Shown here: positions 1,944 to 49,401 of the stretch, piece after piece
How positions within the stretch are numbered: the first letter of the stretch is position 1
How the letters are laid out: each line of letters begins with the position of its first letter
The notes under the pieces: generated by a model
The model's input: only the letters and a program-made list of their open reading frames with translations
The model's database searches: none
What the model was told of the DNA's origin: nothing
Assembly: GCA_018663505.1 (NCBI GenBank)
Contig: JABJQG010000003.1
Coordinates: 1-64,000, forward strand
Length of the DNA: 64,000 nucleotides
Reading direction: 5' to 3'
Origin: Pseudobdellovibrionaceae bacterium
Lineage (GTDB): Bacteria; Bdellovibrionota; Bdellovibrionia; Bdellovibrionales; UBA1609
Position numbers and translations under genes: made by a program

Positions 1944-2005
1944 GTCCAATGCGTCTGTCTATGGGTTTGTGAGTGTGGGGGCTTTGGTGCAAAGTTGATA
2001 GCTTT

Positions 2006-2165
2006 CCATCCATGGGAGATCAGGGGCTGGCCGCCCCTGAAACCCGCAATTCTTCAACATCGTGTTGAAGAATCTATAAATAATTAAATATTTATAGATT
2101 CCCCCACACGACGTGGGGGAATTGGTGGGTTCGGGACGCCTTTAGGCCCGATCTCCCATGGATGG
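2006..2165. repeat. composite inverted-repeat element, copy 1 (inverted relative to copies 2 and 3)
   Basis: The outer arms are CCATCCATGGGAGATC (2006-2021) and GATCTCCCATGGATGG (2150-2165), a perfect 16-bp inverted repeat. Inside lie a GC hairpin (AGGGGC/GCCCCT, 2022-2038), a 25-nt hairpin (2049-2073, loop TCG), an A/T dyad centre (2074-2097), a second 25-nt hairpin (2098-2122, loop ACGAC) and another GC hairpin (about 2134-2150). Similarity to copy 2 extends outward past the left arm (TGCAAAGTTGATAGC at about 1988-2002). No coding frame explains it. It fills most of the 575-base gap between the secreted-protein gene and rpsB. It is either a non-autonomous mobile element or a structured RNA/DNA element; the sequence alone does not decide. 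Confidence 0.9.
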
Positions 2166-2342
2166 AAACGTCTCAATGGAAACTCTAAAACTCAAGACGA
2201 CCTACTCACAATCCAATAAAATAAATCGCCATTCCTACCACTTTCAGCTGAAATTTATTAATAAACACAGCTAAATCCCCCAAATTACCCATTGCATCTA
2301 GTTTTCATTAGTGGTACTTATTGATGGCTTTTTAAACAAATG

Positions 2343-48943: not shown

Positions 48944-49160
48944 GTCGTTCTTATACATGCAAAGATCCACGAATCTGTCATGGGGTCTATATTTTGTCAA
49001 TGAATTGCCTTATTTATAGGGGCTTTTAACGATTTTACAATCTTTGTTACTCTTTAATTATAGGATGCGTCATCTATCTGCTTAATAATTAAAACATACC
49101 CTTCTTTTATGAGTTTATGAGTGGGTAATATTGAACTGTGGATTCCCCATTGGCACCTTT

Positions 49161-49343
49161 CCTTCCTTGGGAAATCGGGCCTAACGGCGGCCCGAACCCG
49201 CCAATTCCCCCACGTCGTGTGGGGGAATCTATAATACAAACTCTCAGTGACCTATAGGAATTTAATTATTAATAGATTCTTCAACACGATGTTGAAGAAT
49301 TGCGGGTTTCAGGGGCGGCTAGCCCCTGATCTCCCATGGACGG
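49161..49343. repeat. composite inverted-repeat element, copy 3 (left arm degenerate)
   Basis: Same orientation as copy 2. The left outer arm, CCTTCCTTGGGAAATC (49161-49176), differs at several positions from the consensus; the right arm, GATCTCCCATGGACGG (49328-49343), differs at one. Inside are CGGGCC/GGCCCG (49177-49193), a 25-nt hairpin (49204-49228), a 47-base centre, the second 25-nt hairpin (49276-49300) and CAGGGGC/GCCCCTG (about 49310-49328). AACCCGC (about 49195) can also pair with GCGGGTT (about 49302). It lies in the 505-base gap between rplU and RNase G, downstream of the latter. Confidence 0.9.
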
Positions 49344-49401
49344 AAGAATATCAACTCTGCACTAAAAGTTCTAAAGTTCCCATTCCTAAACTCATAATTT
49401 T

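Follow-up and report, generated by a model that had tools for sequence, protein, structure and literature searches.

The hairpin pair analyzed here appears to form the core of a REP/BIME-like element that is dispersed and non-autonomous and belongs to a Y1 (HUH) RAYT-like transposase system, a reading to which we assign a probability of about 0.6. The pair lies near the start of the window (the whole 64,000-nucleotide stretch of Pseudobdellovibrionaceae DNA that was analyzed), and its parts, together with two further copies in the window, are as follows.

2003–2021, minus strand: left inner inverted arm, TTTCCATCCATGGGAGATC; read outward, GATCTCCCATGGATGGAAA, which includes the conserved GGATG tag
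2020–2040, minus strand: left outer hairpin (HP2), TCAGGGG...CCCCTGA; the helix 35–41/49–55 covaries
2049–2073, minus strand: left 25-nt hairpin (HP1), stem class B; read outward, ATTCTTCAACACGATGTTGAAGAAT
2074–2097, no strand: AT-rich centre, with a 9-bp hairpin here; length and sequence vary in other copies
2098–2122, plus strand: right 25-nt hairpin (HP1), stem class A, ATTCCCCCACACGACGTGGGGGAAT
2131–2151, plus strand: right outer hairpin (HP2), TCGGGACGCCTTTAGGCCCGA; site of an IS481-family insertion in other copies
2150–2168, plus strand: right inner inverted arm, GATCTCCCATGGATGGAAA
29978–30171, minus strand: second window copy, stem classes A/B
49158–49346, minus strand: third window copy, stem classes A/B

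Comparison of the two HP1 hairpins, which read ATTCTTCAACATCGTGTTGAAGAAT (2049–2073) and ATTCCCCCACACGACGTGGGGGAAT (2098–2122) in the sequence of the window, reproduced the gap-free match over 25 positions between the second hairpin and the reverse complement of the first that a preliminary description had reported. The mismatches were located, as claimed there, at positions 5, 6 and 8 against 21, 20 and 18, and every one of them keeps the base pair. The hairpins of this first copy also differ at the loop edge (position 15, T versus C), and the same pair was found again in the second and third copies. Each half of the element consists, from outside inward, of a variable outer arm of ~60 nt, which in some copies can pair with the arm of the other half, the TTTCCATCCATGGGAGATC arm, HP2, a linker and HP1; the halves are joined by the AT-rich centre, which measures ~45–50 nt in most copies and 24 nt in the window copy. 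Compared with dinucleotide shuffles, the window copy folded with a z-score of −11.7 for DNA and −11.4 for RNA, and these values, together with two-sided stem changes and with pairing above the level of slid controls, indicate that the structure of the window element is not due to chance.

The folded repeat is present in ~58 dispersed, intergenic copies in the genome of the window. Searching this genome with a covariance model of the half-unit (R1) detected 117 half-units, made up of 54 inverted pairs and 9 singles and spread over the contigs. The 5′ flanks of HP1, read by eye, were WTAG in most units of this genome and GAAC, TTCC, CGGA or others in the related genome G073, and a shared head tetranucleotide (GTAG/GGAG or CGTC) at the hairpin foot was absent from the flanks in both. 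We found no account of such repeats in Bdellovibrio relatives in the open-access literature. An IS481-family element (L114 54–1208, minus strand) splits HP2 in at least 8 half-units (in G000: C3:170447, C26:68, C34:4254, C38:66263, C56:1269, C64:52, C64:33235 and C6:92). Because most of these interrupted half-units sit at contig ends, this insertion breaks the assembly too; insertion sequences are also known to enter REPs (PMC1525189).

Analysis of the HP1 stems in 40 distinct half-units revealed that 94% of cells were paired and that two-sided changes occurred at 8 of the 11 pairs; slid controls had 32–48% paired for the whole structure. Most of the 112 scored HP1 copies fall into four stem classes (CCCCC, TTCAA, CTAATGG and TCCC), changes from the consensus of a copy's own class were rare (1.7% of stem sites in the 112 copies), and the tip CACGA[T/C]G was retained in 103 of them. 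The genome-wide hairpin alignment that the preliminary description had proposed as a check yielded an excess of two-sided, pair-keeping changes: 8 distinct changes in 11 cells of the 112 hairpins, 100% of them pair-keeping, against 0.31 cells expected by chance (~36-fold). The interpretation offered there, selection on structure and on recognition of the central motif, is supported in that paired change about a fixed centre holds in 112 hairpins here and also across 10 genera. The outcome was mixed for the finding that it had named as refuting, stem differences that break pairing as often as they keep it. The stem differences that set classes A, B, C and D apart preserve pairing, whereas within classes the one-sided changes comprised 10 distinct breaking and 5 wobble changes, mostly single-copy, against 8 distinct two-sided changes. 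Since breaking one-sided changes are as common as two-sided changes within classes, the constraint may be only partial, or decay may affect many copies; pairing is maintained, yet copies decay too.

The two HP1 hairpins of one element belonged to different stem classes in 54/54 paired elements of the window's genome, whereas random re-pairing of the same halves gave a mean of 17 like-stem elements and never fewer than 6 in 20,000 trials, a contrast (0 versus 17 like-stem elements) that is inflated by shared ancestry. Unlike stems were also present in 25/25 paired elements from other genomes, with a difference of 1 to 7 stem pairs. Folding computations predicted that, in a hypothetical class A/class A element, one long duplex would be 18.8 kcal/mol more stable than the two-hairpin form, and that the native hairpin pair is without such a trap. 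On this folding model, the long-duplex trap offers a reason for the unlike stems noticed in the preliminary description: like stems would anneal into one long duplex, destroying both hairpins, and the stems are probably kept unlike in consequence. Kissing of the two tips was considered separately and dropped, as the tips of the window copy are complementary save for the loop edge but those of the GGA-tip elements in G073 are not.

In related genomes, the R1 search detected two weak half-units in G030, and BLAST from these led to G073, which contains dozens of half-units; their HP1 stems include CCAGACGACC, CCTCCTGAGC and CCTTCCGACC, and their tips read CACGATG, CCGGACG or CTGGATG. A joint model (R2) revealed two-sided changes at 9 of the 10 HP1 pairs, and a search of 144 genomes of the class with this model located half-units in 19 of them, which represent 10 genera. 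Every HP1 checked elsewhere was 25 nt long, with the tip C-N-[C/G]-GA-N-G and with stems that were different almost everywhere; a 25-nt template was used to seek HP1 and the searches favour the 25-nt, C-N-[C/G]-GA-N-G form, so that the constant length is partly built in, the stems having been left free. The GGATG tag of the inner arm is common to G030 and G073, where it occurs as CAGGATG. Copy number was patchy: two genomes have tens of copies, whereas most relatives have a few or lack them. In addition, the short sequence GATCCGGAAAAGCGACCTGGTACC is found repeatedly beside several elements and Y1 genes of G073 (L095, L144 and L175).

The preliminary description had also suggested a search for a RAYT-like Y1 transposase, and such genes were found beside or between half-units in G073 and G030, but no cognate was found in the window's genome. 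A half-unit lay near 8 of the 12 Y1 matches of G073: at both L174 and L176 the Y1 gene is situated between two half-units, and six other Y1 genes have a half-unit ~250–290 nt upstream. These six similar loci are copies of one another, and the association therefore amounts to few independent events. Both ends of L162, in the same genome, correspond to those of the L176 element, and L162 keeps the last 24 nt of the L176 ORF, the remainder being missing, and a further copy of the Y1 gene adjoins it; judged by its sequence, L162 has the expected form of a non-autonomous derivative. In G030, a half-unit is located ~75–90 nt upstream of one Y1 gene. The Y1 genes associated with half-units form a subfamily in alignment A2, in which HxH is invariant and YxxxN is found in 9/10; this subfamily scored above the Pfam cut-off for PF01797 and is homologous to solved IS200/IS605 transposases in the PDB, and its scores with the NCBIfam IS200 and RAYT models were far below the cut-offs.

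The window's genome contains ten Y1_Tnp matches at nine loci, none of them a gene of the A2 type. No half-unit was located within 1.5 kb of these loci (0/9), and the genome's own Y1 genes were rejected as partners of the elements for this reason. Eight diverse Y1/RAYT-like genes of G000 (L050–L057), with an FxLMxNHYH-type motif, are each without flanking half-units. A general association of A2 genes with the hairpin was likewise rejected, as a hairpin was near 0/80 A2-type Y1 loci of other genomes and the flanks there were unconserved; the transposase link thus rests on G073 and G030. The A2 subfamily occurs in many copies without conserved flanks in several Bdellovibrionales (G004, with 31 matches, G006, G011, G036, G039 and G032). 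A Y1 gene inside the G006 elements was considered and discarded, the inner sequence there being something else. Two A2-type Y1 genes of G036 have close to them another kind of large palindrome (L212 687–780 and L213 1499–1592), which reads about TTAACTTAATTGTCTTCCTTGTAAAAA ... TTTTTACAAGGAAGACAATTAAGTT, hinting at another palindrome family linked with A2-type enzymes.

ERIC and NEMIS are MITE-like intergenic imperfect palindromes of 100–200 bp that fold when transcribed. The present elements resemble this description as intergenic imperfect palindromes that fold, but they are built of modular fixed-tip hairpins, no link to a DDE transposase was found, and no target-site duplications were evident by eye around the elements. 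With the IS200/IS605 Y1 (HUH) transposons they share, in the relatives, a Y1 domain with HxH and YxxxN and hairpins near both ends, and the internally deleted L162 is comparable to the non-autonomous derivatives of that group; the ends here are inverted half-units, however, whereas the left and right ends of IS200/IS605 are unlike. Similarity to REP, BIME and REPIN repeats with RAYT (PMC2817692, PMC3116915, PMC3733652) extends to short inverted-pair palindromes in tens of intergenic copies with changing stems. The flanking of a rayt gene by two inverted units, as in REP/BIME, was observed at L174 and L176 of one relative (G073); six other G073 genes and one G030 gene had one half-unit each, and the nine Y1 loci of the window's genome had none. 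REP dimers include heterodimers with unlike stems (PMC3733652), and the described REP superfamilies are defined by a GTAG or CGTC head (PMC3733652, PMC2817692). Unlike REP/BIME, the present elements have no GTAG/CGTC head; their constant features are the C-N-[C/G]-GA-N-G tip and, on the outer arm, the GGATG tag. The half-unit is a 25-nt hairpin with an optional second hairpin, and the window's genome is without a cognate Y1 gene. Because this head is absent, we do not file the elements within the described REP superfamilies, and on present sequence grounds they would best be called REP-like repeats of a variant type without the described head.

Analysis of the outer arms revealed a mean own-arm complementarity of 11.2, compared with 6.5 ± 0.6 for permuted arms, and a bimodal distribution: in nine copies the own arm was the best match, whereas many copies were wholly unmatched. 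In L032 the arms form a near-perfect palindrome of ~60 bases with one mismatch, and the arms of other copies are unrelated. This bimodality looks like occasional overwriting of one arm by its partner, as expected from templated copying, and mainly because of it we kept such correction as a rival: a polymerase strand switch would self-correct palindromes and produce two-sided changes in one step, so that covariation would be a mutational by-product. The rarity of G-T intermediates agrees with this proposal as well, but we consider it rather unlikely, as it explains neither why size (25 nt) and tip stay fixed between genera whose stems differ nor why an element's two hairpins were never made alike (0/79), and an A·C mismatch at the tip was retained in nearly all class A copies. 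Templated copying within palindromes, rather than selection, could nevertheless account for part of the compensation.

Action at the RNA level, in which the element would lie in 3′ UTRs and end or protect messages or bind a protein such as CsrA through the GGA of the tag and of some tips, is distinctly improbable in our assessment. The neighbours of the elements were convergent in 23/45, tandem in 18/45 and divergent in 4/45 of those with both flanking genes read, a gene context that rests on simple ORF calls, and this 3′-side location would suit such a role, as would the very stable RNA fold. However, the window copy is situated past a terminator-like hairpin that belongs to the upstream gene (~1916–1933, with a T run after it), and an intrinsic-terminator scan found no terminator-like site within the window copy. 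The elements are palindromic and hence give nearly the same fold from either strand. G-T pairs made up 5/1120 in the HP1 stems, about as many as random one-sided mutation would give; because they are no commoner than this expectation, the tolerance of G-U that an RNA helix should show is not apparent, and their scarcity fits DNA hairpins rather than RNA. As for CsrA, one gene for this protein is present, GGA tips occur in several genomes, and the tag CAGGATG resembles the CsrA consensus, but most tips are CACGA and not GGA. Rfam contained no family for the element at the gathering threshold; a permissive search gave sub-threshold matches only, mostly to long microRNA hairpins, and one of these, to TwoAYGGAY, is in line with action at the RNA level. 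Sites for a chromosome-organizing or recombination protein, spread by ordinary duplication, would account for palindromes of a constant 25 bp whose centre is fixed and for genome-wide dispersal, but the patchy copy number among relatives and the Y1 genes inside or beside elements make this very improbable.

We therefore return to a REP/BIME-like element of a Y1 transposase system as the preferred reading. The element would consist of two inverted half-units, each built from a 25-nt hairpin with the constant tip, a linker and a GGATG-tagged arm, with or without a second hairpin before the arm, and these half-units would derive from a mobile system driven by a Y1 (HUH) RAYT-like transposase. The enzyme probably reads, in single-stranded DNA, the geometry of the hairpin together with its tip and the tag, and the letters of the stems would drift solely in pairs. 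We infer that the transposase recognizes the tip, that the elements transpose, and that they were mobile in the window's genome, where the copies would have moved in trans or may be relics. The elements are probably what is left of a mobile element that reads hairpins, or its passengers. More tentatively, these transposase-linked palindromic repeats of the Bdellovibrio-related order may make up a superfamily that has yet to be described. Its signal would be the tip and a 3′ tag, in place of a head tetranucleotide, and selection would keep the hairpins of an element unlike against annealing.

The family provides a natural covariation experiment, with dozens of stems around one fixed tip and, in relatives, elements that enclose or adjoin Y1 genes. 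For REP biology, this makes it testable whether a RAYT-type enzyme reads the tip, the length or the letters of the stem, and it suggests a simple cause for unlike stems in the paired palindromes of one element. The covariance models may be used to annotate this assembly-breaking repeat family in relatives of Bdellovibrio.
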